From the NCBI RefSeq assembly GCF_025961205.1, contig NZ_JAOQNH010000002.1, positions 457,501 through 521,500 of the forward strand: 64,000 bases of DNA. Reading direction: 5' to 3'. Below, in pieces: positions 35,070-53,909 of this stretch. The stretch comes from Azospirillum fermentarium (lineage in GTDB: Bacteria; Pseudomonadota; Alphaproteobacteria; Azospirillales; Azospirillaceae). Made by a program: the position numbers and the translations under genes. The notes under the pieces are model-generated. The model did not search any database and had not been told where the DNA came from. It saw only the letters and a program-made list of their open reading frames with translations. Positions within the stretch are counted from its first letter, which is position 1. Each line of letters begins with the position of its first letter.

Positions 35070-36723
35070 CTGATAACGACAAACCCGTAGCATCCGCTGC
35101 GGGTTTTGTTGTTTTTACAGCCTTTCCAATGGCTTGCCGCTCCGTCCAGTTGAGGATCGTGCCCAGTTCGCCGTGAAGCGTCGCGTAAATCTCGCCTCGT
35201 TCTGGCCCCGGTGTGAGCGAAATCTTCTCGATCAGCCCACGTAAAGTCTCTGCCGCTTCCTGGCGCTCTTCCTTGCGATTGAGCGCCTTGGTCAGCGCAG
35301 AAACCTTCTTCGCATAGATCGCCGAGGCGCTCGGCAGAATGTCCGGGGTGTCCTCTGGCGCATCGGCCAGCAGGGTGGTCAGTTCGGTCTTGCGGGCCTC
35401 CAGCGTGTCCATCTCTGCCTTCATGCTCTCATGGAACATACCAGCCTTGATCGCCTCGATGATGCCGCGGATCTGCTTCTCGATCTTTACCAGTTCCGCC
35501 TTCCAGGCATCGCCGCTGGAGCGGCGTTCCCGGTTCAGCCGGTTGGTCTCCTCCGCGTAGGCGCGCATGGCCTCCTCAACGATCTCAGGCGCCATCATGC
35601 GGTCCTTCAGGCCGGAGAGCACGCGGGCTTCCAGATCCTCACGCGGGATCGTGCGGCTGTTTGAGCACGCGCCCTTGCTGATGTGGTTCGAGCAGGCGAA
35701 TCTATCTGCACCGCGAAGTGAGTAGGGGCCTCCGCAGCAGCCACAGAACACCAGACCGGACAGAAGGGACTTCGGCCGACGTGTGCCGTTCAGGCGGTTC
35801 TTTTTGTGGTGCTTGCGCACGGCTTCGGTGACGTTGGCAAACTTCTCGGCGATCTCGCCCTGTCGGACACGGACTGAATGCCAGAGTTCGTCATCGACAA
35901 TGCGCAGCTCCGGCACATCCTTGATGATCCATTCCGATTCCGGGTTCAGGCGTGAGACGCGCTTTCCGGTGGATGGATCTTTGATGTAGCGAAGCCGGTT
36001 CCAGATCAGACGACCGATATAAAGTTCATTGTTCACCAGCCCCGTGCCGCGCTTTACATGGCCCCGGATCGTGGTGTCGCTCCAGAGCTTGCCAGCCGGA
36101 CCCGGGACACCTTCCTCGTTCAATGTGCGGGCGATGGTGCGGGGGCCGACGCCGGCGGCGAACTCGCGGAAGATGCGCCGGACAACATTCGCCTCGGCTT
36201 CGTTGATTTCCCGGTCGCCGCGAATGGGATCACCGCGCGCATCGAGCTGCTTGACGACATTGTAGCCAAAGCACAGACCGCCACCCGATTTGCCGTCCTC
36301 GACGCGGCCGCGAATGCCGCGATGGGTTTTGGCGGCAAGGTCTTTCAGGAACAGCGCATTCATCGTGCCCTTGAGCCCGACATGAAGCTCGCTGATCTCG
36401 CCCTCCGACAGCGTGACAATCGGAACGCCTGCGAACTTGAGGTGCTTGTAGAAGGTGGCGACGTCAGCCTGGTCACGACTGATGCGATCCAGTGCCTCTG
36501 CCAGAACGATGTCGAACTGGCCAGCCTGCGCATCCTGAAGAAGGGCCTGAATGCCGGGGCGCAGGATCATGCTCGCGCCGGAGATGCCAGCATCCTTGTA
36601 GGTTCCGACGATCTTCCACTTCTCGCGCTTCGCCTGCTCGCGGCAGATACGTAGTTGGTCCTCGATCGACGCTTCGCGCTGATTGTCGGAAGAGTATCGG
36701 GCATAAAGCGCAACGCGGGTCAT
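35026..36723 (-). CDS. Large serine recombinase (site-specific integrase)
   Basis: 565 residues. The N-terminal resolvase domain has the nucleophile in LYARYSSDNQ (Ser11/12), then EASIEDQLRIC and AEALDRISRDQADVA. The recombinase domain (GYNVVKQLD, RIFREFAAGVGPRTIARTLN) follows. A zinc ribbon (GLVFCGCCGGPYSLRGADRF) and a C-terminal coiled coil (about 420-500) complete a normal large serine recombinase. The last residues (VVAGRGFEPTTFRL) are translated from the complement of the tRNA-Met fragment, and the stop codon lies in the anticodon arm. This shows that the element's end coincides with the tRNA. ATG at 36723. Confidence 0.92.
   Translation of the reverse strand: MTRVALYARYSSDNQREASIEDQLRICREQAKREKWKIVGTYKDAGISGASMILRPGIQALLQDAQAGQFDIVLAEALDRISRDQADVATFYKHLKFAGVPIVTLSEGEISELHVGLKGTMNALFLKDLAAKTHRGIRGRVEDGKSGGGLCFGYNVVKQLDARGDPIRGDREINEAEANVVRRIFREFAAGVGPRTIARTLNEEGVPGPAGKLWSDTTIRGHVKRGTGLVNNELYIGRLIWNRLRYIKDPSTGKRVSRLNPESEWIIKDVPELRIVDDELWHSVRVRQGEIAEKFANVTEAVRKHHKKNRLNGTRRPKSLLSGLVFCGCCGGPYSLRGADRFACSNHISKGACSNSRTIPREDLEARVLSGLKDRMMAPEIVEEAMRAYAEETNRLNRERRSSGDAWKAELVKIEKQIRGIIEAIKAGMFHESMKAEMDTLEARKTELTTLLADAPEDTPDILPSASAIYAKKVSALTKALNRKEERQEAAETLRGLIEKISLTPGPERGEIYATLHGELGTILNWTERQAIGKAVKTTKPAADATGLSLSVVAGRGFEPTTFRL
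35084..35116 (+). terminator. Terminator following the tRNA fragment
   Basis: CCCGTAGC, loop ATCC, GCTGCGGG (8-bp stem with one wobble), then TTTTGTTGTTTTT: a factor-independent terminator on the plus strand, carried along with the tRNA 3' end. It lies inside the 3' coding end of the serine recombinase gene on the other strand. Confidence 0.75.
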
Positions 36724-37226: not shown

Positions 37227-37531
37227 CGTCTCCAAAATCCCGTGCCCGGAAAGGGGCTGGGACAATGGAAGCGCGGAATGTCAGCCGAGGGAAGGTCTCG
37301 GGCACCGCTGTGCGGTGAATGGGATACCGTTGCGTAGAAAAGGGACGGCGTATTTGGAAGCGAAAGTGGCTGAACAGATCCCATAAGCACACAGATGACT
37401 TCGAATCTTCTCCATCTGCCACTTGCATAATGAATACCTAAACCGTTGCGTTTTTAACGCAAGCCTGAGAAGCATAGAGAAGTGACGCACAATGTTAAGA
37501 CTAAACACTATCCGAAAATGGTAACCATAAG
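37227..37531. other. Spacer with no recognisable gene
   Basis: About 305 bases between the recombinase block and the end of the PglZ operon. Moderately AT-rich, with no convincing coding frame, tRNA or inverted repeat on either strand. It probably marks the junction of two independently acquired segments. Confidence 0.5.
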
Positions 37532-40300
37532 CTAAGTAATCTCAACATAGCCAATGAGTTCTGCAGAGTAGCTTCCATCTCCAGCTGCGGTGCCCTTATG
37601 CTTGAGCTCCCGTTGAAGGGACGGCTCGACGGTCTTGCTGAAGATGCTGATCCGCTCATCCTCGCCCAGGAAAGGTCGAGAGGGCGACAACCTGAGCACC
37701 TGATCAACCTGGCGCTCAATTGCAGGAAGCCTTGTCCCCTCAGGGCTGACCGCGATGGATTGTATGGTTGTCCGTTTTTCACCTTGACCGTTGGTCGCTT
37801 CCACAAGCCACAACGAGAGGATGGCTGGTTCAATTCCATTTCCCTCAAGGGCTACTCCGAGAAAATTCGGATTGAGCGAACGCCACCTGCCCAGTTCCTC
37901 CTGGACCGCTGGATGATCAAGCCCCAGGAGATCGCACGTTTCGGAGGAAGTTGCGACATCGCGGTTTAGAGTAAATCGAATGCGGCGGGCACCATCGACC
38001 GTAAGTAAATCGATAGTCTCTGCATCAACCTTCGAGATCCTTAGATTCCGGTCCGCCATGGCCACCGACAAGAAATCAACCAACCGCTCCAAACCCGTGG
38101 AAACATCGGAGAACGGCTTGTAATCATCCAGACTGAAGCCTTCGAGATCTTGGAAGAGATCAAATACTACCTCCCGTGCCTCGCGTGCGTTTGCCAAGGC
38201 CGCCTCAAGTTCAACTGCGGTCCGTTTCAGCTCTGGGTCACCCAGAGCCTCTTGGTAAAGCCGGTCGTAGTTCAATCGCTCTGACAGCTGCCCAAGTATC
38301 TGAGAACGCAGATCTTCTGCGACGTTGCCTTGCTCGTCGACTTTCCCGAGCGTTCTCGCGATTTCCGTAAGCTTGTCGTCAAGCAGAAGAAAAATGCGCC
38401 CTTCGATCGTATCTGAAAGGACCAAGTTGTAGACTTGCGCGGTGTGCGCTTGACCATATCGATGAATTCGACCGATCCGCTGTTCCATATCCATTGGATT
38501 CCAGGGCAGGTCAAAATTGAAAAGGATGCGTGCGAACTGCAGATTGATGCCCTCGCGGCCTGCTGCGGTGCAGACCATTACACGCGGCCCATCCTTCAAC
38601 TTGAAGCGGCGTTCAGCAGCGGCTTTGGCGCCGTGATCACCGCCACGGAGAACTACGACGCCTTGACCGGGATATGTCGCCTCGATTTCACGGGCCAAGA
38701 GGTCCACTGTCCCCAAATACGTGGCAAAGATCACAATCTTTTCGTTGGGATTTTGACGCCACAAGGTACCAAGGCCGTCGAGTAGCTTCTGCACCTTGGT
38801 TTCACGCTGCACCGGAAAAACCGAGAGCAAGTCTGCAATTCGCAACCGCTCTTCCGGTAGATGCAGGTCGATCGCTGCCGAGGCGACATCCTCCATATGA
38901 GAAGACGCAAATTCCGAGCCATAAGGATCGGACGCCATCTCCAGCGCTTCCTCGTCCAACTTCTTTGCGAGCCTATATTTTAGGTCGGCCATTATCCGGT
39001 CGACTTCACTTTTCCCGATCGGATCCCTTTCAAGCCCCCATTCGGCATGAATCAGCTCCCGCGCTTCATCGAACAGTCGCTCGCGACCTTCAATATCAAG
39101 CTCCTTGTCCCGCAGAAGCGCCTCTTGCAGGGTGAGCATGAGCATACGTCGCTTGAGTGTCCGCCTCACGGCAGCGAAGCTGGACGCTGCGATCTTTTGG
39201 AAGATCGCCATGAGAAAGCCCAAGGCTCGCCCTTGGTTTCCTTTTCGTTTGGCCAGGTCGAAACCTTCTTCGAGGTATTCGCGCAGCCGCTCATAAAAGC
39301 GTCGCTCTTCGTCACCCATCAGGAAGGATTCTGTATGTACCCACCGGCGTGCGAAAAGCGGATCTCCATCCGGGCGGCAAGCATCCGCCTTGGTCCGTCG
39401 GAACATCACGGTATTCAAGCGATGTCGATTTTCCAACATCTCCTCAGGGCTGCCGAAGAGCGTGGGATTTAACAGTTGGACGAGCATCCAGAACTGGAAG
39501 TGGTTTCCTTGATGTGGCGTCGCGGAGAGGAGAAGGAGGTCTCGCGTGTGACCTTTCAAAGCCTCGCCGAGTTTGTAGTTTTCCGTCTTCCGAACTTTCC
39601 CTCCCGTTCGGTAGGCGGTCAGGTGGTGCGCCTCGTCAAAGACAACAAGATCCCAATGTGGAGCTTCCAACAGGCGTTTGATGCGCGCTGGCCGCTTCAA
39701 CGTGTCGATGCTGGCAATGAGCCGGTCATGTTTCGCGAAAGCGTTAGTCTTGCGGTCGGTGATATCGCCTTCCGACCCAAAGACCTCGAAGTCCAGGTTG
39801 AAGACTTCGTTCAGCTCCCGGTGCCAGTTGTTCACGAGGCCCGCAGGCACAACCATCAGGGCACGATCAAGCTCACCGCGGCTTGCCAATTCGCGGAGCA
39901 CGAGCGCGGTTTCGATTGTCTTTCCGAGACCGACTTCGTCGGCGATAAGAAATCGACGAGGCGAGGCTGTTGCGATGCGATGTGTCAGAACGACCTGGTG
40001 GGGCAGAAGGTCGATCCGCGCGGACGTGAGCGCGGACGCGCTCTCCATCACGGGCAGTGCGTGAGCCTCGTAGGATAGCCAGACGGATCGTGCCCGCTCG
40101 GCGGTTCCCTCTACTGATCGCAGAATGCGCTCGGTGCGCGACAGCTCCTTCTGAACGCTGGCGATCGGAACGCGGCGCTCTCCGATACTGAAGAATGCAC
40201 GGAGGTAGCCGTCGCGCGGTGCTTCAAGCACAACGCCGGCGCCGAAATCGAGATGGGTGATCCGCTCACCGGGGCCGAAGGTGGTCTGTTCCATCTGCAC
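37532..40300 (-). CDS. SNF2/RapA-type helicase of PglZ operon
   Basis: 922 residues (GTG at 40300, or ATG two codons later). Superfamily 2 SNF2-like motor: LLPHQVVLTHRI, Walker A ADEVGLGKTIE (about 130-140), FDEAHHL (about 218), LLLSATPHQG. The second lobe has VIFATYLGTVDLL, VMVCTAAGREGINLQFA and GRIHRYGQAHTAQVYNLV. The C-terminal 250 residues are specific to this family. Similar helicases occur as DrmD in DISARM and BrxHII-like proteins in BREX (family knowledge). Last gene of the operon; two bases separate it from the previous gene, so it is translated with it. Confidence 0.88.
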   Translation of the reverse strand: MQMEQTTFGPGERITHLDFGAGVVLEAPRDGYLRAFFSIGERRVPIASVQKELSRTERILRSVEGTAERARSVWLSYEAHALPVMESASALTSARIDLLPHQVVLTHRIATASPRRFLIADEVGLGKTIETALVLRELASRGELDRALMVVPAGLVNNWHRELNEVFNLDFEVFGSEGDITDRKTNAFAKHDRLIASIDTLKRPARIKRLLEAPHWDLVVFDEAHHLTAYRTGGKVRKTENYKLGEALKGHTRDLLLLSATPHQGNHFQFWMLVQLLNPTLFGSPEEMLENRHRLNTVMFRRTKADACRPDGDPLFARRWVHTESFLMGDEERRFYERLREYLEEGFDLAKRKGNQGRALGFLMAIFQKIAASSFAAVRRTLKRRMLMLTLQEALLRDKELDIEGRERLFDEARELIHAEWGLERDPIGKSEVDRIMADLKYRLAKKLDEEALEMASDPYGSEFASSHMEDVASAAIDLHLPEERLRIADLLSVFPVQRETKVQKLLDGLGTLWRQNPNEKIVIFATYLGTVDLLAREIEATYPGQGVVVLRGGDHGAKAAAERRFKLKDGPRVMVCTAAGREGINLQFARILFNFDLPWNPMDMEQRIGRIHRYGQAHTAQVYNLVLSDTIEGRIFLLLDDKLTEIARTLGKVDEQGNVAEDLRSQILGQLSERLNYDRLYQEALGDPELKRTAVELEAALANAREAREVVFDLFQDLEGFSLDDYKPFSDVSTGLERLVDFLSVAMADRNLRISKVDAETIDLLTVDGARRIRFTLNRDVATSSETCDLLGLDHPAVQEELGRWRSLNPNFLGVALEGNGIEPAILSLWLVEATNGQGEKRTTIQSIAVSPEGTRLPAIERQVDQVLRLSPSRPFLGEDERISIFSKTVEPSLQRELKHKGTAAGDGSYSAELIGYVEIT

Positions 40301-40302
40301 GA

Positions 40303-40803
40303 TCAGGTGATCCTCAAATGGAACAGGCCCACCGATTTACCGCCCTGCGCAAGAATGATCTCTTGCGGATACTCCCAGGCTTCTCCCCACAAGACCCGTC
40401 CGAAATCGATAGTCTCGCTGGAAAACGGCGCAGAGCACCGCCACCGCACGGCATCGGTCGCAAGGTCGATGGGCATTCGCCTCTGGCCGTTTGGAAGCCA
40501 GAACACCAGCGATGCCTGACCATCGTAGAAATCCTGGAAGGAGAGGATCGCTGATTTCAGGGCTCCGCCAAGCCAGGCATCGGCGTCCGCCGGCGACAGA
40601 AGGTCGAGGCAGGCATCGAGGCCCGCCACGACCAATGTGTCACCGCCGTTGCTCGGCAGTTCGTCCGGCCACGATTTGGTGGCAAGCATCAGCTGGCGCA
40701 GGCTGTAGACCTCGCTCGCCCGCGCAACCTTCGCGAAGGCGTCGTCGTCCCAAATCCAGCTGACGCCCCGACGTTGCCAGACGCTGTCGAGCACCTGTTT
40801 CAT
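40303..40803 (-). CDS. Small unknown protein of PglZ operon
   Basis: 166 residues from the ATG at 40803 (MKQVLDSVWQRRGVSWIWDD to SVGLFHLRIT). It begins two bases after the methyltransferase stop and ends two bases before the helicase start, so it is a fixed member of the operon. TLVVAGLDACLDLLSPADAD and FQDFYDGQASLVFWLPNGQR suggest an alpha/beta fold recalling the small BrxF-like subunit of some BREX loci, but there is no P-loop. Family unassigned. Confidence 0.65.
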   Translation of the reverse strand: MKQVLDSVWQRRGVSWIWDDDAFAKVARASEVYSLRQLMLATKSWPDELPSNGGDTLVVAGLDACLDLLSPADADAWLGGALKSAILSFQDFYDGQASLVFWLPNGQRRMPIDLATDAVRWRCSAPFSSETIDFGRVLWGEAWEYPQEIILAQGGKSVGLFHLRIT

Positions 40804-40805
40804 GC

Positions 40806-43800
40806 TCAATCCTCCAAGAAGAACGACAGCTGCTGGACCTGCTCTTTGTTGCTGGCAGCCCAGTTGTTGTAAATGCTCAGTGCCCGCGAGGCCGCGTTGC
40901 GCATCTGCTGCGTCTGACCCCGCTTGCTCATCCATTCGAGAAGGCTCTTCAGCGCCGCGTGGGGCTTGAAGTTCTCGTTCTTTAGCGTGTCCGCCGCGTT
41001 GATCCCGCTGCCGTCATAACAGGCCCCCATCAGAACGAAGGTTTGGTCCAGGTCGGCCGACAGTTTGCGCCGGTGTCGTCCCTGCCAATCCTGTGCGATC
41101 GCGAGCGGGTCGTTGAGGTAGAACACCTTTTTCTCTTCGCGAGCCCAGCCGCGGCTTACGAATTCATCCGGGGCGATCCCCGAGCCGCGCAGCATCTTCT
41201 GCATCTGGTCGCGCGCGAGCTCGGTCTTGCCATCGAAGATGCGCAGGAACTGACGGGTGATCGGCTCTGCGGTCACCGGCGGTGGCTCGGAGGCCTTGTT
41301 GGCATCTTCGTCGATCAGCTGGTTGATGCCGACGAGGGCATCCTTGACCGAAATCGGCCGGCCTTCGTCGACATAAACCTTCCCGTAGTGCTGCGAGAAG
41401 TATTCGAGCGCCTTACCGCGCCGAATGACCTGGATGTCGGCTTCTGGAAGACCCCGCTGGGCGTGATTTTCCAGCAGGCCTTGCAGCTGACGAACGTCAG
41501 CCAGAACCTCTCGGCGCATACGGGCCCAGCTGACGGCCTTCGGTTCATGAATGCGTTTCCGGCACACGTGCACGATGTCGTATTCGATGGTCTTGGAGCC
41601 AAACTCTCCTTCGCCCTTCGTTTCGTCCGAGCGGATTGGATAGGTCGCCTCGAGATAGAAACCGGCGTCGAAGAGCGATTCCAACACCGATACCCACGGA
41701 GCGTCTTCACTATGGTGGAAGGTGAATGCCAGTACTCCGCCGGGTTTTAGGACACGATGAGCCTCGCGCCAGCAGCCGGTCAGCAAGCGCTGGTAAAATC
41801 CATCCGGGTCGTCGGGCTCACGCGCTTTGTTGGACACGGCCTCCATTGATTTCGGTGTGTATTCCGGGCCGAAGTACTCTGGGTACTTCGCCTTCAGCGG
41901 GAGGCGGAGCCAAACGTAGAAGAAGTCCGCAAGTTCGGAATAATGAAGCAGGCCACCGAAGGGAGGATCGGTAATCACCAGATCTATTGATTGGTCACCA
42001 AACTGGTTCAGTTCCGTCGAAGATCCCTGGAATATCTCCGTTTCTTGCACAGCGTCTCCGGGGAAAACTTTTTCGCTTTTTCCCGAAATCTCAGCGGCAA
42101 GCGAGGGGTGAGTAACGGCAAGCGTGTCGGCACTCACCGGATCCCAAGGGTGTTGAGACCATTCTTCACCGGACTCAATAACTTCTGAGCACGAAACCCA
42201 ATTCCCTCGCCCAAGTGAGCTAAAGACGCAGTTTTCGATGATATTTGCTTTGGGATGATAGTTATTGTTGCTCATGTGGGGGACAAGTTTGTCATACCCA
42301 ACATCCCAGAAACAAAACATATTCTGGTTGCGGAGATACTGCTGGAACGCACCAAGAACATACTCTCGCGTTGCCCAGCTGTAGTCACCCGTTTCCACGA
42401 TAGACTTGAGGATCTGCGACAACACGAGAAGCTGCCGTGGATTAAACATGGTCCACCAATGCGTGAACCCATAGTTCGTGCGAATATCGCTGTTTGCGAT
42501 GGCCGTCATGAAGCCATACGGAACCTCGGAACGGGGCCAATAGTCAGCTAGATCGCTGTCCTTTCGCTGCTCCCACTCCTCGATTGCAGCGCTGTATTGG
42601 TCTGCCAGCTGTTCGTCGAAGGGGGCAAAGAAGCGGCCGCGATAGGGCGCTCCGGAATCTCCGCGCTTGGGCGCGAGCCCCTGGATGCCATATCCTGCGA
42701 CCTGTCCGCCTTTCTTGGAATCGCGGATCGAATTCATTACATCCTGCTGCGAACCACATGATGCACAGGTGAAGGTGGACCGCTTCGGAACCGTGCCGCC
42801 TTCCTTGCCGGTCGGGAAGGTCACCTTGGTCTCGGGACAAGTGACCGTGTCCGGCAGCTTGCCGCGTACCTCCAGCAGCCGAATATGGCTCGCCCGCTCG
42901 GAATTCCAAGCACGGGTTGATGCCGCGTCGTCCTGCGGTGCTCCGCCAAATTCACTGCCATCCGGGGCAGTTTTCGGGCTGCCAGCCAGCCATTCAGGAT
43001 GGACCAAGAGCGTGAGATCGACCTTCTTGTTTTTGCCCTTGTTGAGCTTCACTATTTCGGTGTGGCCGCAATGGGGGCAGATGACCCGGCCTTTCCGATC
43101 GAGGATCGAATAGGGCTTTTCGTCGGGCGCGACATAAAGCGGAACGTCGGGCGCCATTCGCGCCTCGGCGTCCTCGATCTCGAAGCGCTCACTGCATGAC
43201 GGGCATTTGTGCGCCCAATGCTTCACGGTCAGCGTTTTCACCGCCATCACCGGATTGGTCATGATCGGCGTGCGGTGACCGCAACCTGTTACCTGGCAGG
43301 GCCCGTGCTTCGCCCAGAAGGTATAGATGATCTCGGGCCCGTCGTAGGCGTAGTCTTTCCGCTCCTCAGGCTTCAGGGCCAACGGATCGAAATCCGCGCC
43401 CATCACCTTGCCCGAGGGTTTGTGCGTCCAGGTGCCTTTCTCGCCGTTCGGGCCATCGCAGTAGTAGAACGGCATGATCTGCGGTTTCACCTCGGCCTCG
43501 ATATCGGCCAGGAGGCGCCTCACCTCATCGAGATCAACATCGGCCAGTTCCTGCTTCACCACGAACCATGCGACCGGGTTCAAGTCGTTGCCAGACATCT
43601 GCATGCCGAGTCGCGATCCTTCGACCAGCGTCGTGCCGCCGCCCATGAAGATGTCGGCCACCTTCAGGTGCTTGAAGGCGCCTTTCTTCTGGTGGTTGGC
43701 GTAGTAGTTGTCCCAGACCAGCTTCGCTGCATGAGAGGGATCCTCGGGCGCCTTGGTCGCCGCCGAGATCAGCATGGAGCGGAACACGCTGGACCGCCGC

Positions 43801-44012
43801 CGGGCCCACCATTTCGACATCTGGTAGATCGGTTTGCCCGCGTTACCTTCAATCACGGCGACCTGGTTCACGGGCAGGATCGGGAAATCCACCTCGAGGC
43901 AGGTCTTGGGGCGGTTCGGATCGCTGAAATCGACGGTTTCCATGGCGACGGCTTTGCCGGCACCAACCGCACGCGCGACCTCTTGGGCAATCTGTTCTTT
44001 CTTGGTCGCCAT
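40806..44012 (-). CDS. DUF1156-type adenine-specific DNA methyltransferase
   Basis: 1068 residues. The DUF1156 start is recognisable (PIYQMSKWWARRRSSVFRSM), followed by a SAM-binding region (VADIFMGGGTTLVEGSRLGM, NDLNPVAW) and catalytic motif IV TDPPFGGLLHYSELADFFYV at about 680-700. Two zinc-ribbon-like Cys clusters (HKCPSCSERFE and ICPHCGHTEIV, then FTCASCGSQQDV) lie between them. In PglX-like systems the methylase marks self DNA while the other subunits act on unmodified phage DNA (family knowledge; inferred here). The upstream PglZ gene ends 13 bases before the ATG. Confidence 0.85.
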   Translation of the reverse strand: MATKKEQIAQEVARAVGAGKAVAMETVDFSDPNRPKTCLEVDFPILPVNQVAVIEGNAGKPIYQMSKWWARRRSSVFRSMLISAATKAPEDPSHAAKLVWDNYYANHQKKGAFKHLKVADIFMGGGTTLVEGSRLGMQMSGNDLNPVAWFVVKQELADVDLDEVRRLLADIEAEVKPQIMPFYYCDGPNGEKGTWTHKPSGKVMGADFDPLALKPEERKDYAYDGPEIIYTFWAKHGPCQVTGCGHRTPIMTNPVMAVKTLTVKHWAHKCPSCSERFEIEDAEARMAPDVPLYVAPDEKPYSILDRKGRVICPHCGHTEIVKLNKGKNKKVDLTLLVHPEWLAGSPKTAPDGSEFGGAPQDDAASTRAWNSERASHIRLLEVRGKLPDTVTCPETKVTFPTGKEGGTVPKRSTFTCASCGSQQDVMNSIRDSKKGGQVAGYGIQGLAPKRGDSGAPYRGRFFAPFDEQLADQYSAAIEEWEQRKDSDLADYWPRSEVPYGFMTAIANSDIRTNYGFTHWWTMFNPRQLLVLSQILKSIVETGDYSWATREYVLGAFQQYLRNQNMFCFWDVGYDKLVPHMSNNNYHPKANIIENCVFSSLGRGNWVSCSEVIESGEEWSQHPWDPVSADTLAVTHPSLAAEISGKSEKVFPGDAVQETEIFQGSSTELNQFGDQSIDLVITDPPFGGLLHYSELADFFYVWLRLPLKAKYPEYFGPEYTPKSMEAVSNKAREPDDPDGFYQRLLTGCWREAHRVLKPGGVLAFTFHHSEDAPWVSVLESLFDAGFYLEATYPIRSDETKGEGEFGSKTIEYDIVHVCRKRIHEPKAVSWARMRREVLADVRQLQGLLENHAQRGLPEADIQVIRRGKALEYFSQHYGKVYVDEGRPISVKDALVGINQLIDEDANKASEPPPVTAEPITRQFLRIFDGKTELARDQMQKMLRGSGIAPDEFVSRGWAREEKKVFYLNDPLAIAQDWQGRHRRKLSADLDQTFVLMGACYDGSGINAADTLKNENFKPHAALKSLLEWMSKRGQTQQMRNAASRALSIYNNWAASNKEQVQQLSFFLED

Positions 44013-44025
44013 GGGCGTAAATTCC

Positions 44026-45015
44026 TTACTTCGTCAATTCAACAAACGGGCAGAGCATCTCGAACAGGGACAAGCCGCCATGCGCGAGGGTGGGGTAGCC
44101 GCCCTGGCTTTTCCATTTCCAACGCCCGACTGCGAGTAGGTGCTTGCCGTGCTGGCTATCCACCGAAAGGGCAACGGGCGGGACAAAGGGACCGGGATCG
44201 TGGTCGCCGGATAGAAGCCGTCCGCTCTTCAGCGCGCCCTTGAGGAAGGAGGCCTGTTCGTCCATCGCGTCGTAGAACAGCCCTGTGGCGGCATACCCAT
44301 GATCAGAGGTGATGACCAAACGACGACCGGTCGCGAGGCGCTCGACGAATTCCCAGAAATCGTCGCTGGTCAATTGTGTTGCGATATCGCGCGTAAGGAG
44401 ATCCAGACCCTGACCGGCACCGGCACCGTCGTGCAGCTTGCTATCGGGCCATTGGTGCCAAAATACCCAATTCGGCGAGGCATCGATCAGGCCGGCGCAA
44501 TCCTTCCAAGGCAGGTCAATCGTCTCGGTTCTGGCGGGCGCCAGCTTGTGGACGAGCCCACTGCCGTTGTTCTGAAGCTGGCTCCGGCTTCCGAAGCCTA
44601 GGGCTTTGGCAAAGGCATTCGTCTCCGACGGTATTTCCGCACCGTAGCCGGCAGCGGTGTGAACAACAAACCCGCGTGCCTTTGCGCCCTCGAGAAGCCA
44701 AGGCATTTCTCGCAGACTAAGCCCATCGAGAATCAAGACGGCCTTGGCGCTGTAAGGCGCGGACCACCATTCAACGATCTTCTCAGCATTGCGCGGGGCG
44801 GCGTTCCCAAAGGTTTGCCACAAACCCCATGCCGCCGACGACAGAAAGTGGTCGATCTCGCCGATGGCCCGATCCCGTCGGGTCACTTCTCCAGGCGCCT
44901 TTTCGGCATCTATTGGTGCTCCGCAGATCGACATGACGCGCTCGATGATCGTGGCCCAAGCCTCATCATCAGGAGCTGTCGTCAGGCCCGCAATCGCTTC
45001 CAAGTCCAACGCCAT
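44026..45015 (-). CDS. PglZ-domain protein (short form)
   Basis: 329 residues, much shorter than the usual BREX PglZ. The alkaline-phosphatase-like core is present: KAVLILDGLSLREMPWLL with the metal-binding Asp, and RLVITSDHGYAATGLFYDAM with Asp-His-Gly. Its ATG overlaps the stop of the DUF499 gene as TGATG, so the two are translationally coupled. In BREX, PglZ is essential for both modification and defence although its reaction is still unclear. Confidence 0.85.
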   Translation of the reverse strand: MALDLEAIAGLTTAPDDEAWATIIERVMSICGAPIDAEKAPGEVTRRDRAIGEIDHFLSSAAWGLWQTFGNAAPRNAEKIVEWWSAPYSAKAVLILDGLSLREMPWLLEGAKARGFVVHTAAGYGAEIPSETNAFAKALGFGSRSQLQNNGSGLVHKLAPARTETIDLPWKDCAGLIDASPNWVFWHQWPDSKLHDGAGAGQGLDLLTRDIATQLTSDDFWEFVERLATGRRLVITSDHGYAATGLFYDAMDEQASFLKGALKSGRLLSGDHDPGPFVPPVALSVDSQHGKHLLAVGRWKWKSQGGYPTLAHGGLSLFEMLCPFVELTK

Positions 45016-47768
45016 CAGTTGTCCTCCTTGTCGAGCGACAACTCGAACGTCATGCCATCAGGCAGTTTCTTGAGGAGTTCCTTCAGCTGCGCGCCAGTCG
45101 CAGCGTCCACCTTTATGGTGACGGCTTTCACAGGCGTTGCTGGACCAATTCCCCAACCTTCGAGTTTCCCGATAAGGTTGAGCGGCGAGGTCGCGGGTGC
45201 GGCAAAGGGCATACGAGGCGCGCCAGAGCTGGCACCACCACCGAAGATGCCGCCACCAGGTTGCGGCATCGGGTCCGGCGCGCCTGGTACTGATCCCGGG
45301 TTCTCGGACATTCCTCCGGGAGGCGCTGGCGTCGGCTCTGTGCCCCCGCCGAAGAGCCCGCAAGGGGGGGGCGTTCCCGGAGCTGGCTGTGGATTCGCCC
45401 CCCCGGTCGCTGGAACAGCAGACGGCGGCAAGATGAACACCTCGTCAAGCTGGCGTCCTGTGTACGAAAGCTTCGGCCGCAAGCGTCGCCACGCGGTCTC
45501 TTCGTCCTCGCCTGACTGGGCCTGCAGATACTCCATTCCTCGAAGGTTGATCGCGATCTTGCCTTTGGCACAGAGACGCAAGATCCGCTCTTTCATGGCC
45601 GTCTCGCCCAACCATGGGATACAATCCTGGCCTGCCGGGCGAGGCTCTTGCAGTTCCTTAAGTATCTTGCCGACCGAACTGTTATTGGTTGCGGCCTCAA
45701 GCACTAGGTGTTCAAAATCCTCAGGGACGAACAAGTCGTTCGTCATCGCGATTTCAATCGCTTCCGGAACCTTCGCTCCTTGCTCGCGAAGTGTCTCGAT
45801 ATGGAACTCGCATTTCGACGGGTCGCCAAAGTTCCAACTGTGCAGCACGGCAAAACGATCAAACCGCTTCTTGAGAATGTCCCGCAGCTCACCTTGGTAT
45901 TTCGACTGCAGTTTACGATACTCCGCATTCTGCGCGCCCCATTCCTGCGCCTTCATTTCCGCCCTAGCGAGGACAAGAAGGTCACGATCATAGAAAGCGT
46001 TCGAAGTCCCGTTCCGAGGGATCAGGAACCGAACCGTGTTCCGACGTTTCTGGAGGTGATCTTTGAGCCACCGCCCAAGGCGCTCATCAATGCGATCCGG
46101 CTCCTCGGGGAGCACCAAAATCGGTAGCCTGTCGTCCCAACGCTCGGGCTGTTCACTCTCGTCCAAGCCCGTCCAAGGGTCGTTCAGCCAATTGCGGGGC
46201 AACGCGATGACACGGAATGTCTTGGCGACTTCCTCGCTGCCACCGATGACGTAGCGGGTTTCCTTAGCGAGTTGAATGAGGTCCGATCCATCCGTGAAAA
46301 GCTTGTCATTTCTCGCGGAGGCCATGACTTTGGCCTGAGGGTTTTCCTCTTCCTTGAAGACGAGCCGCGCTCCATCTTGGTGGATATTGAAGCTGTTCTC
46401 GATGACCGTTGCGAGCTCAACCTGGAAAGCATTGTCATCGACTGGTTTTGCCCGCGTCAGGTCGATTTGCAGAACAGAAGGCTCTGCGCCGGCCATGTTT
46501 CCGACCGCTATTGACCGCAGCCACAGCGAGCCGATGATTTCCTGAAGATGTGGGACCTTCGAGGCGTGGTCTGGCACGGCTTCGGTTACAGAGGTGAGGT
46601 TGCGAAGGGCTTTGTCGCGTAGGGCGCGGTGTTGCTGATTGGCAACCGAGTCCAGAAGTGCTCCGATCCCGGATGCATCATCGTCGAGCCGAAAATCGGC
46701 AGCTGTCAAAACTGGAGCGTTCTCGCCGCTGCTCTTATGCAGGTTCGCCAAGATGCGGATGAGGTCGCGCGTCTCTTGGGCGTCTGTCGCCACAAGCACC
46801 TGATCCTCCAAGAGTTGCAAGAGGTGCGGCGCGAAGGGCCAGCATTCGACAAAGTCTCGCCGCTTCCTGTCCTGTTCGGAAGATGGCGTACCGAGCTGCC
46901 GAAAATATTCGTTGATGTGAACGTCGAGGGTGCTCTCGATTGCCGAGGAGCCGATCTGCAACCGGTTTTCAAACAGCCGATGGAGGAGCATGCGACGGCG
47001 ATCATGCTGGATCTTGTCCGGGCTACCGCCAGCACGGAAATCCACCTGAACGGGATTCACCCTGTGGATCTGCTGGTATGCGTCGCTTGTCCCGTTTCGA
47101 ACCGAAACCACGAGCACGAGGAGTTCGGGGTGCTCCTTTGCAATCTCAGAGAGGATCTGGATGAAGTTGAACGCCCAGTTTTTCCACGGATACTGTTTAG
47201 TGTTCGTGAGGCCGTCGAACCAGGTCTGAAACTCGTCGAGCAGCAGCATCGTCGGCGAATGCCGGAGCATCTCGAGGATGAGCTGGTCGGACGGAATGTC
47301 AGTCTTGCTGGCACCCATACCTTCCCACTTCCCCTTGATGTATGTGCCGTGTGGATGCCGTTCGAACAGAATGTCCCAGAGGAACTTATAGCGCTGACGA
47401 TGGAGACTTTCCCCGATGACGAGCATGCCATTCCGCAGCGGGATTTGACCGATCGCCGGGTCAGACAGGGTAGTGGACCAGCTCTTCAACCAATCTCCGG
47501 TTGAGGCAGGATCACTAACAGTGTGATAGAGAGCGGCCATAAGGTGTGACTTCCCGAGGCCGCGTTCACCAATGACAACAACCGGTCGACCTTGCTGGGG
47601 GCCGACGGCTTCGATGCCTTTCAATAAATCGAGCGTAGGGTACGTGATCTCAAGAAAGTCGCGGGCCGGCACTTGGGTCGCCCCCGTATTCGCATCGTTG
47701 GACAGCTCAATTGCCGTCCCTTTGAGGCGCCGCCCTTTGAACTCATCCCTCAGCTTCAAACCAAGCAT
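45015..47768 (-). CDS. DUF499-type AAA-like ATPase
   Basis: 917 residues. Walker A VVVIGERGLGKSHLMAALYH (about 63-80) and Walker B MLLLDEFQTWFDGL (about 158-170) define an ATPase of the DUF499/PglY-BrxC type. A proline/glycine-rich stretch (about 785-860, with GAPDPMPQPGGGIFGGGA) links to a short C-terminal beta domain (VKAVTIKVDAATGAQLKELL). BrxC-like ATPases form DNA-engaging rings with PglZ and the methylase. The stop of the WYL gene directly abuts this ATG. Confidence 0.85.
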   Translation of the reverse strand: MLGLKLRDEFKGRRLKGTAIELSNDANTGATQVPARDFLEITYPTLDLLKGIEAVGPQQGRPVVVIGERGLGKSHLMAALYHTVSDPASTGDWLKSWSTTLSDPAIGQIPLRNGMLVIGESLHRQRYKFLWDILFERHPHGTYIKGKWEGMGASKTDIPSDQLILEMLRHSPTMLLLDEFQTWFDGLTNTKQYPWKNWAFNFIQILSEIAKEHPELLVLVVSVRNGTSDAYQQIHRVNPVQVDFRAGGSPDKIQHDRRRMLLHRLFENRLQIGSSAIESTLDVHINEYFRQLGTPSSEQDRKRRDFVECWPFAPHLLQLLEDQVLVATDAQETRDLIRILANLHKSSGENAPVLTAADFRLDDDASGIGALLDSVANQQHRALRDKALRNLTSVTEAVPDHASKVPHLQEIIGSLWLRSIAVGNMAGAEPSVLQIDLTRAKPVDDNAFQVELATVIENSFNIHQDGARLVFKEEENPQAKVMASARNDKLFTDGSDLIQLAKETRYVIGGSEEVAKTFRVIALPRNWLNDPWTGLDESEQPERWDDRLPILVLPEEPDRIDERLGRWLKDHLQKRRNTVRFLIPRNGTSNAFYDRDLLVLARAEMKAQEWGAQNAEYRKLQSKYQGELRDILKKRFDRFAVLHSWNFGDPSKCEFHIETLREQGAKVPEAIEIAMTNDLFVPEDFEHLVLEAATNNSSVGKILKELQEPRPAGQDCIPWLGETAMKERILRLCAKGKIAINLRGMEYLQAQSGEDEETAWRRLRPKLSYTGRQLDEVFILPPSAVPATGGANPQPAPGTPPPCGLFGGGTEPTPAPPGGMSENPGSVPGAPDPMPQPGGGIFGGGASSGAPRMPFAAPATSPLNLIGKLEGWGIGPATPVKAVTIKVDAATGAQLKELLKKLPDGMTFELSLDKEDN

Positions 47769-48650
47769 TTACGCCTCTCCAATTCGTTCTGCCGGCTTAG
47801 CCGGAAATGATGTTTCCCGGTTCAGCAGCACGATCTGCTGATCCTGCGGATTCCTCGCGGATGGATCCGTGTCCAGTCCAAGGCGCTTGAGCGTGTAATA
47901 AAGCAGCGCGCGGCGAACCTTGATCTCGACTTTCCCGTCCTGCATGCCGTAGTCGAGCGCGATCACCTTGGCCTGTGTCTCAGACAGGCCTGGGTGGGGC
48001 CCAACCTCCAAGGTAATCTCCGAATGCCAATCGTCGTCTCCGGCGGCAGAGGTTGCAGCCTCGGCGGTCCCTCGCACCTCAAGCATCCGCGACAGCAGGA
48101 AGTCCTTGAAGCAATCGTCGGTCATGCAGAAGGCTCGTGCATGCCAACGAAACCCATCGAAAGCGATTGCATGGGGTGCAATCCATCGCCAGCGTGGATC
48201 TGGATTGGACAGCGATTGGTAATTAACCTCTATCGCTTCGGCGCGGCGAATGGCGCCAACGACCGCGCGCAAGGTTTCAGAATGAACGCCGCGCGCTGGA
48301 GTGGGCGTCGAACAAAACTCCAGCACATCGGTGATCCAGCAATCATCGCGATCCAGGATCCCTTCTTCCAAGGATCGCAACTGGGCCAAGTAACGACCTG
48401 CGTCCAGCTTCCCAAACACTGCCTTGAACCCCGGGCCGCGCACGTAGGTGCGCGCACTCTTGTCGTAGGTCATATTGTCGGGGGCGAAGCTGATGTAGCG
48501 ATTAAGGTCGGATGAAGCCTGGTTCACCGACAGCCCGAACTGTTCCATGACATCGCTTCGGTTCACATGCCCCTCCCAAAACAGGCGAAACTCGATGAAC
48601 TCGAGCCGCTGCTCGACGCCCCAGCGAAGATCCGACCTGTCGTTTTCCAC
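47769..48650 (-). CDS. WYL-domain repressor of BrxR/CapW type
   Basis: 293 residues (GTG at 48650). An N-terminal winged helix (EGHVNRSDVMEQFGLSVNQA) leads into a WYL domain (AIEVNYQSLSNPDPRWRWIA, FDGFRWHARAFCMTDD) and a C-terminal WCX-like dimer domain. BrxR/CapW proteins repress defence operons until infection and bind palindromes upstream of themselves. Here it is the first gene of the PglZ operon and an inverted repeat lies just upstream at 48669-48698. Confidence 0.88.
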   Translation of the reverse strand: MENDRSDLRWGVEQRLEFIEFRLFWEGHVNRSDVMEQFGLSVNQASSDLNRYISFAPDNMTYDKSARTYVRGPGFKAVFGKLDAGRYLAQLRSLEEGILDRDDCWITDVLEFCSTPTPARGVHSETLRAVVGAIRRAEAIEVNYQSLSNPDPRWRWIAPHAIAFDGFRWHARAFCMTDDCFKDFLLSRMLEVRGTAEAATSAAGDDDWHSEITLEVGPHPGLSETQAKVIALDYGMQDGKVEIKVRRALLYYTLKRLGLDTDPSARNPQDQQIVLLNRETSFPAKPAERIGEA

Positions 48651-48668
48651 AGCCTTGCCCTTGGGTTT

Positions 48669-48698
48669 GTTGTGAGTGTGCTAACTGTGCGCACACAA
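48669..48698 (-). promoter_or_regulatory. Inverted repeat, probable BrxR/CapW operator
   Basis: TTGTGAGTGTGC and GCGCACACAA form an imperfect inverted repeat; the exact palindrome TGTGCGCACA is at 48686-48695. It lies 19-48 bases before the regulator's start codon, where an autorepressor would block transcription. Confidence 0.6.
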
Positions 48699-49068
48699 TT
48701 TCTGTGCCCTTTGCACGCTATCTGATCGGCAGAGCGCGGGCAACTAAATTTGTAAGCAAGGACAGTTGTTTGCGTGGATAGGTGTGATTTGTAGTGGGAG
48801 AATAAATGCGAACTTGCCGGGCTCGGGCTGTCGTCGGAATGTTATTCCAGTCGTGGCGTCAACATGCTGAAATTATTGCCATTCTGAATATTTTCCATTT
48901 TTTGTTAAAAAATATACAAGCCATCCAGATGTTATTCCAGCGGGTACTGTTTGTTGATTTGATTGAAAATCACCACCTAGATTTGTGTTCATAAGGAAAC
49001 CTGAACTTAAAACGGGTCGTACTATCCGAATTCGCGGCATCGAATGTTCGTCAAAAAAAAGCCGCCTT
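48699..49068. other. AT-rich spacer between PglZ operon and McrBC
   Basis: No supported gene. A 62-codon frame at 48806-48994 has a GGGAG before its ATG but an unconvincing composition. ATGTTATTCCAG occurs twice, at 48839-48850 and 48929-48940. The clear drop in G+C suggests a junction between two acquired defence units. Confidence 0.5.
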
Positions 49069-50334
49069 TCATGTTTTGCGTAATGGAACATGGTGTTCTG
49101 CATGATTAACTATGTCTTGCGCGATGTCCTTCCAATTGTGGGTTTGTTTCGCGAGTGCCAAATCGACTTGCCAGATATCTACTCTAAGGTTGGTCGCGGT
49201 GTAGCGCCATGTTGTTGCGGCCAATTTCTGTTTGATCGCAGGATAGAAAAGTATGACGCGGCTTGCATTGTAGGCCGCCCCATAGGACGCGAGTTGGTAT
49301 AGGTCGGCTTGGCTCACATTTGGCGTAGAGCCTGAATGTTTTCCGAGATCCTTCCATTTCGTATCAATGACCAGTGGACCTTCAGGCGTGTCAATGACGA
49401 TATCCGGGATCAGAGGGTAGGCGCCATGCTGCAACAGGGTGTGCTGTCGGCGCTGAACTGACACTGATCCGGGCGGAAGAACCCGTTGCAGCCAGCGGGC
49501 AACATACCGTTCAAACAGCATGTTCATCGGAAAGAGCAACGAAATGCCCGTGCCGTGTCCGGAACTCGTGTTTTGCCACTCTGCTTCCATCAGCATGCGC
49601 GCAAGCATTTGGGCCTGGCGAAACCGCTCATTCATCCGGTTCCAGACGATCCGCTCCCTCAGGGGGGCGGGGCTGGTGGGGATGTCGGCGAAGCGGGCTG
49701 TCAGATTAGCGATCCGGCGCCGCAGAGGCTCGGAGCGCACAAAGGGGATGATGTGCAACAGGCTGGCCTTGAACAGCCGGTTGAGCGGCGTGTTCTCGGA
49801 AAACTCGTCAAACCGGCAATGCAGGCGGGAAGGATCAACCGAACGGCGAACGATCTGCTGCCGCACATCGAGCGCTCCCCGCAGCTTAGGCAAAACATCC
49901 TCCTCTGGCACATAGTCGCGCGTCAGACCGGATTTCGCTTGTTCTGCAAGGCGTGTCACAAACAGATTGATAAAGGCTTCGAGAAGATCGCTCTCCTGTG
50001 CGCCCATCTGCGCGATCTGCCCTTCTGAAAGCGGTATGTCGAAGGCCACCGCAATCATCCGCACAAGGGTTGCTCGCAATGCACCGTCCTCATCGGTGAG
50101 CTTGGGCAGTATTTCCAAACTTATCCCTGGAACGGAAATAATGCCGCAAACCTGCTTGGTTTCCAGCTTCCGAAAGCCGCGCGCCAGTACGCCGTTCTCT
50201 GCCACGCCAAGCCTGCGGGCAGCCGTGATTGCGGCAAGATGCAGTTGCTCGGCTTGTCCTTCGCTGATTCCGTCGGGTCCAATGGGCAGAGAAGACCATT
50301 CCGGCAGCGAGTAATGGCTTTTCTGTTTGGGCAT
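49069..50334 (-). CDS. mcrC: McrC, nuclease subunit of modification-dependent restriction
   Basis: 421 residues. The N-terminal region has GFRKLETKQVCGIISVPGIS and ISLEILPKL; the family signature FDEFSENTPLNRLFKASLLH sits near 175; the PD-(D/E)XK active site is PDIVIDTPEGPLVIDTKWK (about 315-335). McrC cuts DNA once the McrB GTPase ring has loaded on methylated sites (established). Its ATG overlaps the mcrB stop as TAATG, the usual coupling in this pair. Full length. Confidence 0.93.
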   Translation of the reverse strand: MPKQKSHYSLPEWSSLPIGPDGISEGQAEQLHLAAITAARRLGVAENGVLARGFRKLETKQVCGIISVPGISLEILPKLTDEDGALRATLVRMIAVAFDIPLSEGQIAQMGAQESDLLEAFINLFVTRLAEQAKSGLTRDYVPEEDVLPKLRGALDVRQQIVRRSVDPSRLHCRFDEFSENTPLNRLFKASLLHIIPFVRSEPLRRRIANLTARFADIPTSPAPLRERIVWNRMNERFRQAQMLARMLMEAEWQNTSSGHGTGISLLFPMNMLFERYVARWLQRVLPPGSVSVQRRQHTLLQHGAYPLIPDIVIDTPEGPLVIDTKWKDLGKHSGSTPNVSQADLYQLASYGAAYNASRVILFYPAIKQKLAATTWRYTATNLRVDIWQVDLALAKQTHNWKDIAQDIVNHAEHHVPLRKT

Positions 50335-52148
50335 TATTCCTGTCCCAGAAGAGCCATGTAAGCTGCTTCAGGGTACGCGCCTTCTTCCCGAAAAACATCG
50401 GAATAGCGATACCGATCCTCAGCAAATCCTTCAGCCCCCTTGGGAACCGGAATAGGGGATCGATTCAGGAAGCCGTCGCCGCCACCCAGAACAATGCGAA
50501 CCCGTTCAATGTCGTCATGGAAATACTCACGCAGCAGCGGGATGACCTTGAACGCCATGATCCGATCGAGGTCGGCTTTCGTCTTGACGCCCATAAACCA
50601 GGCGTGGCCGATCTGGGCATCCTCTCCCAGAAAATAGACAAGGCGCAGATTGAGGTTGTCCAGAATGGCTGCAAGATCGAGCGCACTATCGTCGAGCTCG
50701 ATGCCTGCGAGTTCTGCGGAATCGGGTGGCAGTTCCTCAAACACGAAACGCCGCCGCAGTGCTGTATCCAGCAGCGAGATGGATCTGTCGGCCGTGTTCA
50801 TCGTGCCAAGGATGTACAGATTGGCCGGAAGAGAGAATGCGGTCTTGGAATAAGGAAGTGTGACGGTGATCGCCGCAGGCGCTCCCCGTCTCTTGTCTGC
50901 CTCCAGAAGCGTGATAAGTTCGCCCAGAACCTTCGAGATATTGGCGCGATTGATCTCGTCAATGATGAGGACATGGTTGCCGGCCTGCTTCGACGCCCGC
51001 TCTGCAATCACTTTCAGAACGCCTCCTTCCGGTTCGAGCGTGAAGCCTGCCCCCGATGCCATCGGCTTGGGTCGCAGTCCCTCGACGAAATCTTCGTAGG
51101 TATAGCTTTGGTGGAAGGTGACGAAGCCGATGCGCCCGTCCTTGACCAGTTGCTCATAGGACGCGCGCACTGCACCCGGATCGGACGCCACCTGGCCTAG
51201 ACATATCTCGACGGCGCGTTGTGCGGTACTGAATGTCTTGCCCGTACCCGGAGGGCCGTAGAAGATCGTATTCAGTTCAAAACCGGATGGAGCTGGCACG
51301 ATGGCTTCTTCATCGAGTTTATCTGTCGAGTGCGCCTTCTTTTCTTTCGGCTTCTGCCAGACAGGCCTGAAGTCACCCTCGTAGAAATCGACGTGTGAAC
51401 CATGCTTGGCTTCAAGGCTCTTGCGCAAAGTCAGAAGTGTGTCATCGAGCTTGGCTATGCTCATAGCACCGACATCGGCTGCGGTTATGGCCCCGAAGCC
51501 AGCCAGAATATCCCGTTTATGCTGGCCGGCGCTGATGCGCTCGAAGCTGTCAGGAAAAAGCAGGAAGGGCAGGATATGGCGCAACTGCCGATTTTCGCCG
51601 TTCACCTGTATCTCGAACCAACTGGCAAATGCGCCGCCGTCCCCAAGCAGGCGTCGACGTTCATCAACAGGCCTGGATTTGAGATCCTGCATGGCGGTAA
51701 TCAACAGAACGAGCTCGCGCCATTTATTGTTGTTATATCCTTGGCCAGCCCGGCCCACACCGTAAAGGACCTGTTCGGTCAGGGCCGCCACATCTTGCGG
51801 CAAGTCCTGGCCTGACCAGGACCAAACCTCGCGGACTTTCCGATCCTTGGTCGGGGGAGAGACATCGCCACGCTGGAAGGCATAAAGTAGCCAGATCAGC
51901 TCGGCCATCAGGCAGTGCGCTTCAGCGGTTGCGTCAGACAGCTGGACTTTCAGCTTTTCAAAGAACTTGCCTTCGCCTTCATCGAGGTTCTGGACGTAGG
52001 TACGTTGCAAATCTGCAAAGTGTTCAGCGGTCCAGAGTGAGCGTCCAGGTGAAAGCAGGGAACCATCGCCGATCAGACAATCAGTGCGAAGGCGATCCAT
52101 CGTCTCGTAAAGCGGAGAAAGATCAGCATCTGGGTTATAACGGGCCAC
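50334..52148 (-). CDS. mcrB: McrB, GTPase subunit of modification-dependent restriction
   Basis: About 604 residues from the GTG at 52148, chosen because GAGGAAT sits seven bases upstream; the frame runs to 52232 but that extension lacks a ribosome site. The N-terminal 300 residues are a target-recognition region unlike the EcoKMcrBC DUF3578 domain as far as I can see. The AAA+ GTPase follows: Walker A FYGPPGTGKTFSTAQ (about 300), LIIDEINRANISKVLGEL (Walker B), and the GTP-specific MNTADRSISLLDTALRRRF. Confidence 0.92.
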   Translation of the reverse strand: MARYNPDADLSPLYETMDRLRTDCLIGDGSLLSPGRSLWTAEHFADLQRTYVQNLDEGEGKFFEKLKVQLSDATAEAHCLMAELIWLLYAFQRGDVSPPTKDRKVREVWSWSGQDLPQDVAALTEQVLYGVGRAGQGYNNNKWRELVLLITAMQDLKSRPVDERRRLLGDGGAFASWFEIQVNGENRQLRHILPFLLFPDSFERISAGQHKRDILAGFGAITAADVGAMSIAKLDDTLLTLRKSLEAKHGSHVDFYEGDFRPVWQKPKEKKAHSTDKLDEEAIVPAPSGFELNTIFYGPPGTGKTFSTAQRAVEICLGQVASDPGAVRASYEQLVKDGRIGFVTFHQSYTYEDFVEGLRPKPMASGAGFTLEPEGGVLKVIAERASKQAGNHVLIIDEINRANISKVLGELITLLEADKRRGAPAAITVTLPYSKTAFSLPANLYILGTMNTADRSISLLDTALRRRFVFEELPPDSAELAGIELDDSALDLAAILDNLNLRLVYFLGEDAQIGHAWFMGVKTKADLDRIMAFKVIPLLREYFHDDIERVRIVLGGGDGFLNRSPIPVPKGAEGFAEDRYRYSDVFREEGAYPEAAYMALLGQE

Positions 52149-52416: not shown

Positions 52417-52424
52417 TCATCCCG

Positions 52425-53902: not shown

Positions 53903-53909
53903 CACTGAC

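Follow-up and report, generated by a model that had tools for sequence, protein, structure and literature searches.

The Type-3 BREX-related (BR) systems, relatives of the bacteriophage exclusion (BREX) systems, were described and named in January 2026 (Rakesh & Krishnan, NAR 2026, PMC12839542). According to the accessible portion of that paper, they comprise a DUF499 ATPase, an N6-methyltransferase (MTase) characterised by a helical DUF1156 N-terminus and a zinc-finger TRD insert, a helicase without a nuclease fusion and a standalone active PglZ (569 taxa), with a separate iSTAND gene in 82% of taxa; a paper of July 2026, as far as its accessible portion goes, restates the arrangement as a minimal PglZ plus a BrxB homologue. 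Here we describe a six-gene operon from Azospirillum fermentarium, found in a 64,000-nucleotide stretch of contig NZ_JAOQNH010000002.1 (hereafter the window). The operon is a good member of this recently named BREX-like defence type and not a new type: very probably it is a Type-3 BR anti-phage system headed by the gene for a presumed WYL repressor of the CapW/BrxR type, its defence activity being predicted from sequence. A first-pass annotation of this DNA had proposed an under-described defence type, BREX-like yet belonging neither to BREX types 1–6 nor to DISARM. The second part is supported, as matches to PADLOC-DB 2.0.0 are partial or scattered over several families (BrxHI/BrxHII, HmaA and DrmD for the helicase, HmaB and PglXI for the MTase, with weak PglZ and HmaC matches) and no single system is matched; the first part has been overtaken by the naming of Type-3 BR in 569 taxa and its restatement in July 2026.

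The operon consists of six tightly packed open reading frames (ORFs) on the minus strand, running from 48650 to 37532 and encoding, in order of transcription, a WYL protein, a DUF499 ATPase, a PglZ-like protein, an MTase, a small protein and an SNF2 helicase (Table 1). The first-pass annotation had described six genes on one strand with overlaps or gaps of 0–13 bases, and this is confirmed, the successive junctions being 0, -1, 13, 2 and 2 bases. It had placed the upstream end of the operon at 48698, which does not hold: the TTG at that position is cut off from the WYL frame by an in-frame TAG, so that the WYL gene starts at 48650 at the earliest. For the small protein the longest ORF is 210 aa and overlaps the MTase gene, and an internal ATG at 40803 agrees with the relatives.

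The last five of these genes match the Type-3 BR set: a DUF499 ATPase, a standalone PglZ, an MTase resembling the DUF1156 type with a putative zinc-finger insert, a separate gene for a 166-aa protein and a nuclease-less SNF2 helicase. To see how stable this set is, we collected 91 relatives besides the window's own copy, namely 80 genome loci (the best 80 of the 214 matched by a PglZ alignment, so that close relatives are favoured), six viral contigs and five plasmid records (the five opened of 38 matched). All five core genes are present in the order ATPase, PglZ, MTase, small protein, helicase in 79 of the 91, with no exception to the order, and the operon is therefore more than a chance association. 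Four of these 79 complete loci have one gene split over two ORFs (the ATPase in L020 and L083, the MTase in L059 and the helicase in L025). Eleven of the 12 incomplete loci run out of sequence, ten of them ending no more than 250 bases from the last core gene found and L034 ending inside cargo. A Halorubrum locus (L006) gave no helicase match in 24.6 kb, and only position and an alignment at 19% identity pointed to its small gene.

The large proteins were compared with the profile libraries Pfam, PADLOC (PADLOC-DB 2.0.0) and NCBIfam. The ATPase matches Pfam DUF499 at 24.7 bits (cut-off 23), over the AAA part only, as well as AAA_16; its Walker A lysine is conserved in 82 of 83 relatives and the Walker B DE in all 83, giving a DUF499-type ATPase with intact AAA+ motifs as in Type-3 BR. 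A sequence search of the PDB with this protein returned eS10 ribosomal proteins only (best E 0.0015). The MTase matches PF01555 (N6_N4_Mtase) and, in PADLOC, HmaB (E=2.4e-34) and PglXI (E=6.3e-27), with nothing at E 0.1 among PDB sequences. Its FMGGGTT and DPPF motif positions are kept in 78–79 of 79 relatives, and two cysteine clusters (239/244/270/273 and 312/315/416/419), each present in 70–79 of 79, fit the two-zinc-finger subset mentioned in the accessible text of PMC12839542. The helicase matches the PADLOC BrxHI|BrxHII profile over residues 95–855 (E=1.6e-97), RapA (E=7e-41) and Pfam SNF2/Helicase_C. Pfam finds no nuclease domain in it, which is the BrxHII-like, nuclease-free arrangement of Type-3 BR, and the three motifs compared are kept in 70 of 70 operon helicases save for one S to T change, three DrmD homologues being left out of this count.

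Neither Pfam nor NCBIfam matches the PglZ protein, which was recognised most clearly by structure alignment. An AlphaFold model (mean predicted local distance difference test score, pLDDT, 77.9) aligns in VIA-align over its whole length with PorX (Z 14.0, root mean square deviation 3.9, 280 residues) and with residues 379–749 of the PglZ chain in the Acinetobacter BREX complex 9zn5 (Z 11.1, deviation 4.3, 282 residues); the next rows are the ENPP5/autotaxin phosphodiesterases, at Z 4.8 or below. Foldseek with the same model gave nothing at E 0.001 or below, PorX coming first at 2.9e-3, and a PglZ profile run against PDB sequences reached PorX only at E 0.6, behind two designed proteins. D97, T132, D191, D238 and H239 are invariant in the 91 relatives, and H195 and H312 are found in 90 of the 91. 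By analogy with the alkaline phosphatase superfamily, we take these seven residues to be the metal ligands and nucleophile. Together the modelled fold and the seven residues point to a standalone PglZ of the active type with a conserved metal site, as Type-3 BR has. PDB entry titles mention T271V (phosphatase null) and T272A as mutants of PorX, and T538A and H741A have been used for BREX PglZ according to the accessible literature.

The first-pass annotation saw no BrxB-type gene, yet the small protein occupies the position of the BrxB-like component of Type-3 BR and may be its counterpart. Scanned as the 210-aa ORF, it has no match in Pfam, PADLOC or NCBIfam, and Foldseek of the PDB with its AlphaFold model (pLDDT 92.3) gave nothing at E 0.001 or below. 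Almost all the top rows of a structural comparison were P-loop proteins of the RecA or AAA+ kind, though the resemblance is weak. The features listed for iSTAND in the accessible part of PMC12839542 are eroded Walker motifs, a three-stranded insert after strand 4 and the lack of a C-terminal helical bundle. A Walker A motif is found in none of 80 small-protein sequences, and the model has three short strands at 112–122 after the strand at 98–102 and no C-terminal helical bundle. R109 is invariant in the 45 sequences of one comparison and in the six of another, which included that of Halorubrum. A probable reading of the model is an inactive P-loop adaptor, for which BrxB kinship and the iSTAND assignment are unproven.

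Several observations weigh against assigning the operon to Type-3 BR. Pfam PglZ does not match the window protein at E 0.01, nor was it found in a search of the window's genome, and the PglZ model is weak around the presumed metal site, with residues 239–246 and 299–314 under pLDDT 50. The best structural Z of the small protein is just 4.8, and comparison of the small protein with BrxB by hhalign was negative in both directions (Prob 0.0; six BrxB sequences, no positive control). The literature searched held no experiment on any Type-3 BR system. Pfam DUF1156, the name given to the MTase gene by the first-pass annotation, has no match at E 0.01 or better in the window protein; in the four relatives scanned it matches at the N-terminus (14.8–27.2 bits against a cut-off of 24, passed only by Halorubrum), and RefSeq labels many of the plasmid homologues DUF1156. 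The operon also differs from the arrangement given in the main text of PMC12839542 in having a WYL gene first and in that the BrxB kinship of its small protein was not confirmed here. The first-pass annotation had named an exact six-gene match to a named subtype as the finding that would speak against its view; what is found is agreement in gene content for five of the six, the identity of the small gene being unproven and the WYL gene being optional (15 of 83 loci).

Table 1. Features of the operon and its upstream region (window coordinates)
Feature	Coordinates	Strand	Basis
WYL-domain regulator, CapW/BrxR family, 293 aa, GTG start, first gene	47769..48650	-	Pfam WYL; phmmer
DUF499 AAA+ ATPase, 917 aa	45015..47768	-	Pfam DUF499 and AAA_16; Walker motifs
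Standalone short PglZ, 329 aa	44026..45015	-	AlphaFold model and VIA-align; conserved site residues
N6/N4-type DNA MTase, DUF1156/HmaB/PglXI-like, 1068 aa	40806..44012	-	PF01555; PADLOC HmaB, PglXI
Small protein, 166 aa, at the position of the iSTAND/BrxB-like component	40303..40803	-	AlphaFold model; position
SNF2/RapA-like helicase without extra nuclease domain, 922 aa	37532..40300	-	PADLOC BrxHI/BrxHII; RapA
Upstream region, presumed promoter/operator of the operon	48651..49068	-	GTGC-N5-GCAC repeat

Filing the operon under BREX types 1–6 was considered and rejected on account of its short PglZ, its DUF499 ATPase and the lack of BrxA among the matches listed for the operon proteins in PADLOC, Pfam and NCBIfam. 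The PglZ of those types is a multi-domain protein with an N-terminal BrxB-docking domain, where the protein here has 329 aa, and Pfam BrxB was not found in the window's genome. The nearest of them is Type-3 BREX, with which the operon shares a BrxHII-like helicase, a PglXI-like MTase, PglZ and an AAA+ ATPase. It might be a degenerate Type-3 BREX that has lost BrxA and BrxF and in which PglZ has been shortened, as the helicase, with BrxHI/BrxHII as its best PADLOC profile, and the PglXI match of the MTase would allow. That MTase, however, scores HmaB above PglXI, the ATPase matches DUF499 and not DUF6079, no BrxF is recognisable and, above all, the five-gene form is conserved, being found in 79 of the 91 loci, by which the idea is largely refuted; we regard it as very improbable. 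Class 1 DISARM was likewise set aside: the SNF2 helicase is related to DrmD but falls well below the NCBIfam cut-off (297.8 bits against 610), DrmB and DrmC are not among the matches listed, and the sole DrmA match (160 bits) is to the same helicase.

More remote still, in our estimation, is the view that the operon is an Hma (Type-1 BR) system with extra genes. HmaA, HmaB and HmaC profiles do match the three large proteins, the triad of helicase, methylase and ATPase is common to both, and embedded defence modules are described in the accessible literature on Hma, but the HmaC match is marginal (E=2.7e-4), the helicase here is shorter (922 aa) and PglZ and the small protein are added. A survey of DUF499 loci also speaks against it. 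DUF499 occurs in 22 of 200 genomes of the phylum (the window's own included), at 25 places, of which 20, all from other genomes, were read. The three with a PglZ score 1588–1757 bits against the ATPase profile of the window's family; the 17 without a PglZ or small-protein match, several of which lie on short contigs, score 28–50 bits (16) or not at all (one). Six long helicases among these 17 loci measure 1170–1286 aa, whereas 54 of the 70 operon helicases in the window's family have 920–950 aa; a further 12 have 955–1087 aa, lengths that may reflect over-long start choices by the ORF caller. From these bit scores and lengths we conclude that PglZ goes with a distinct ATPase group and a shorter helicase.

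As a Type-3 BR system the operon most likely marks host DNA and cuts unmarked phage DNA, a model that draws on the motifs and fold found here and on the accessible biochemistry of Type-1 BREX. The MTase would methylate a host motif, probably on adenine, and the DUF499 ATPase would assemble on DNA and check for the methyl mark, acting as a scanning and assembly platform. The small P-loop-like protein may dock on the ATPase and couple it to PglZ, and the SNF2 protein would translocate along or remodel the DNA. PglZ, as a minimal metal-dependent phosphodiesterase, would then nick or cut unmarked invading DNA, with the WYL protein presumably holding the operon low until infection or damage.

We lean towards PglZ as the DNA-cutting effector. 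A serious rival, also compatible with a Type-3 BR identity though in our view rather unlikely, is that PglZ cleaves a cyclic or linear oligonucleotide signal in the manner of PorX, leaving the helicase and ATPase to block DNA. PorX is indeed the closest fold (Z 14.0), and the N-terminal, BrxB-binding part of BREX PglZ is absent from the 329-aa protein. In addition, BREX PglZ is reported, in the accessible text, also to cleave oligonucleotides and to retain partial defence when nuclease-dead. This alternative would, however, leave the core with no fixed nuclease gene, where sister systems have one in the helicase, as far as the accessible accounts go. With just five genes, a PglZ of minimal size and, apart from it, no fixed nuclease, the system offers a clean setting in which to test PglZ as the BREX effector.

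The lack of the BREX N-terminal domain bears on the small protein too. Residues 1–96 or 1–98 of BREX PglZ bind BrxB, and the Salmonella PglZ has 867 aa, according to the accessible literature. The model of the window protein aligns only with residues 379–749 of BREX PglZ, indicating a protein without the N-terminal domain (1–98). With the docking domain missing, the small protein must either reach PglZ through a different contact or work solely on the ATPase, a sharp prediction about its mode of action.

Type-3 BR is strongly conserved and spreads between distant bacteria. The plasmid records with PglZ relatives number 38, and 32 of these are typed as conjugative. The PglZ profile matches six of 398 whole genomes of the phylum, one being the window's own and one match being weak and in a longer frame. 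With the window PglZ protein alone as query, the sole match among 61 genomes is the window's own, and 36 genomes of its genus gave none. Three Alphaproteobacteria, each from a different family, carry near-identical copies. In a tree of the ATPase (window plus 89 relatives), built by a quick method that gave long-branch warnings, the window's neighbours are Aliihoeflea, Sandaracinobacteroides and Brevundimonas, genera that belong to three families, and a block of about 17.6 kb (37383–55003) is 94% identical in Aliihoeflea. Taken together, tree and block suggest that the operon is probably a recent arrival that moves between lineages. A search of annotated phages with the ATPase gave no match.

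Two groups of relatives deserve mention. In the Klebsiella michiganensis plasmid pK518_KPC (L004), a Type-3 BR operon with SIR2-HerA-type cargo lies near blaKPC-2; its DUF499 ORF, at 718 aa, is some 200 residues below its relatives. In three sphingomonad-type loci (L037, L040 and L041), a DrmD homologue is found divergently upstream of the Type-3 BR operon (about 2427–5606, minus strand), identified by PADLOC in L040 (E=1.7e-223) and by similarity in L037 and L041, with a WYL-WCX gene between (checked in L040).

Whilst the window operon has no insert, inserts of more than 200 bases between core genes are present in 27 of the 91 loci, at the PglZ–MTase (19/87), MTase–small gene (6/79), small gene–helicase (9/79) and ATPase–PglZ (1/91) junctions. 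One or two members of each cargo class were checked by Pfam or PADLOC and the rest grouped by similarity. Most recurrent classes are confined to one junction. SIR2-HerA (three of three), IetAS (all four complete pairs, one at a contig end), a PemK trio (four, one incomplete) and an unidentified 307–315-aa protein (three) lie between PglZ and the MTase, HEC-01 (OLD-ATPase/DUF4276; seven of seven) between the small gene and the helicase, and Schlafen with a ParA-like protein (three of three) between the MTase and the small gene. The exceptions are a different Schlafen-TPR protein between the small gene and the helicase (L077) and GmrSD, found once between PglZ and the MTase (L086). Relatives of GmrSD follow the helicase in L075, L088, L089 and L091 (with a cut piece in L082) and lie upstream on the other strand in L020, and L022 has an IetA relative beyond the limits of its operon.

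On the ATPase tree the minimum number of changes is six for the seven carriers of HEC-01, three for the three of SIR2-HerA, three for the four of PemK and two for the three of Schlafen-ParA; only two of the four IetAS carriers are included in the tree. These figures favour gain or loss on repeated occasions, although recombining flanks would leave the same picture. A calculation of slot specificity gave one in 235,350,720 arrangements (24 recurrent modules in 20 loci), or one in 2,116,296 when collapsed to the fewest changes on the ATPase tree. Neither figure was used as a probability, since carriers share ancestry, flanks may recombine and the classes were defined after being seen; the pattern-breaking GmrSD and Schlafen-TPR protein were moreover left out of the calculation.

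For Hma operons, embedded defence genes have already been described under the name guilt-by-embedding (Payne et al. 2024 preprint, as cited in two papers), and nucleases inside core loci are reported in PMC12839542 as far as its text is accessible. The known modules seen here inside Type-3 BR operons (SIR2-HerA, IetAS, HEC-01, Schlafen and PemK) go beyond the accessible main text of that paper, in which SIR2, subtilisin, HigA and McrB/McrC were not found and WYL occurs in the reference list only. Tentatively, Type-3 BR operons may be a chassis with class-specific slots into which autonomous defence modules are repeatedly taken up, there to be expressed together with the core and perhaps triggered with it. 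Judging by the slot pattern, such operons are good places to seek new defence genes, the 307–315-aa cargo being an example.

The first gene of the window operon encodes a protein of the WYL family (Pfam WYL, E=5.2e-10) that matches CapW (7tb6, E=8.4e-64) and BrxR (7t8k, E=8.4e-44) by phmmer. The sequence before the ATPase extends for 700 bases or more in 83 loci. In 15 of these the ORF ending beside the ATPase start falls in the WYL cluster, in 34 it falls in one small-ORF cluster (Pfam gave HTH_17 for all five members checked), in five in an HTH_3-type cluster (one checked) and in three in a ribbon-helix-helix (RHH)-like cluster (one checked, below cut-off); none of these clusters stands beside the ATPase start in the rest. 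Because the slot holds such differing ORFs, the regulator is exchangeable and lies outside the core. A GTGC-N5-GCAC repeat at 48704–48716 (minus strand) is at best a weak operator candidate. Across 15 WYL genes compared (the window's and those of 14 loci), it also lies upstream of WYL in L009, L012 and L014 and is not seen in the other 11, among them the near-identical copy L007. Promoter and terminator scans gave matches at shuffle level only, including the promoter-like matches in the upstream region.

Directly upstream of the WYL gene are genes for McrC and McrB (49069–52232, minus strand). The order McrBC–WYL–operon recurs in L007, L009 and L014 (3 of 91 loci), implying that this methyl-dependent restriction pair travels with some copies. 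Further upstream, genes at 52425–63378 (plus strand) have a plasmid or integrative-element flavour: an ArdC-type anti-restriction protein and a ParB_N protein lie there beside the defence genes, and a Strawberry-notch-type helicase is encoded at 58960–63378 (plus strand). Next to the 3′ end of the operon is a gene for a large serine recombinase; the 94% identical block, with its end near 37383 in L007 and 37186 in L009, does not include it.

Elsewhere in the window, two transposase genes in opposite orientation (Pfam DUF772/DDE_Tnp_1; within 33355–36723, minus strand, and at 15015–16091, plus strand) encode identical 358-aa products, and there is also a short piece of an integrase that has an Arm DNA-binding domain. 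An 854-aa protein combining HD-CE with a histidine-kinase-like ATPase is encoded at 30677–33241 (minus strand). At 7751–14883 (minus strand) an nSTAND3 protein (1293 aa) is found beside a CHAT protease-domain protein (1041 aa), a pair that is possibly a second defence module.

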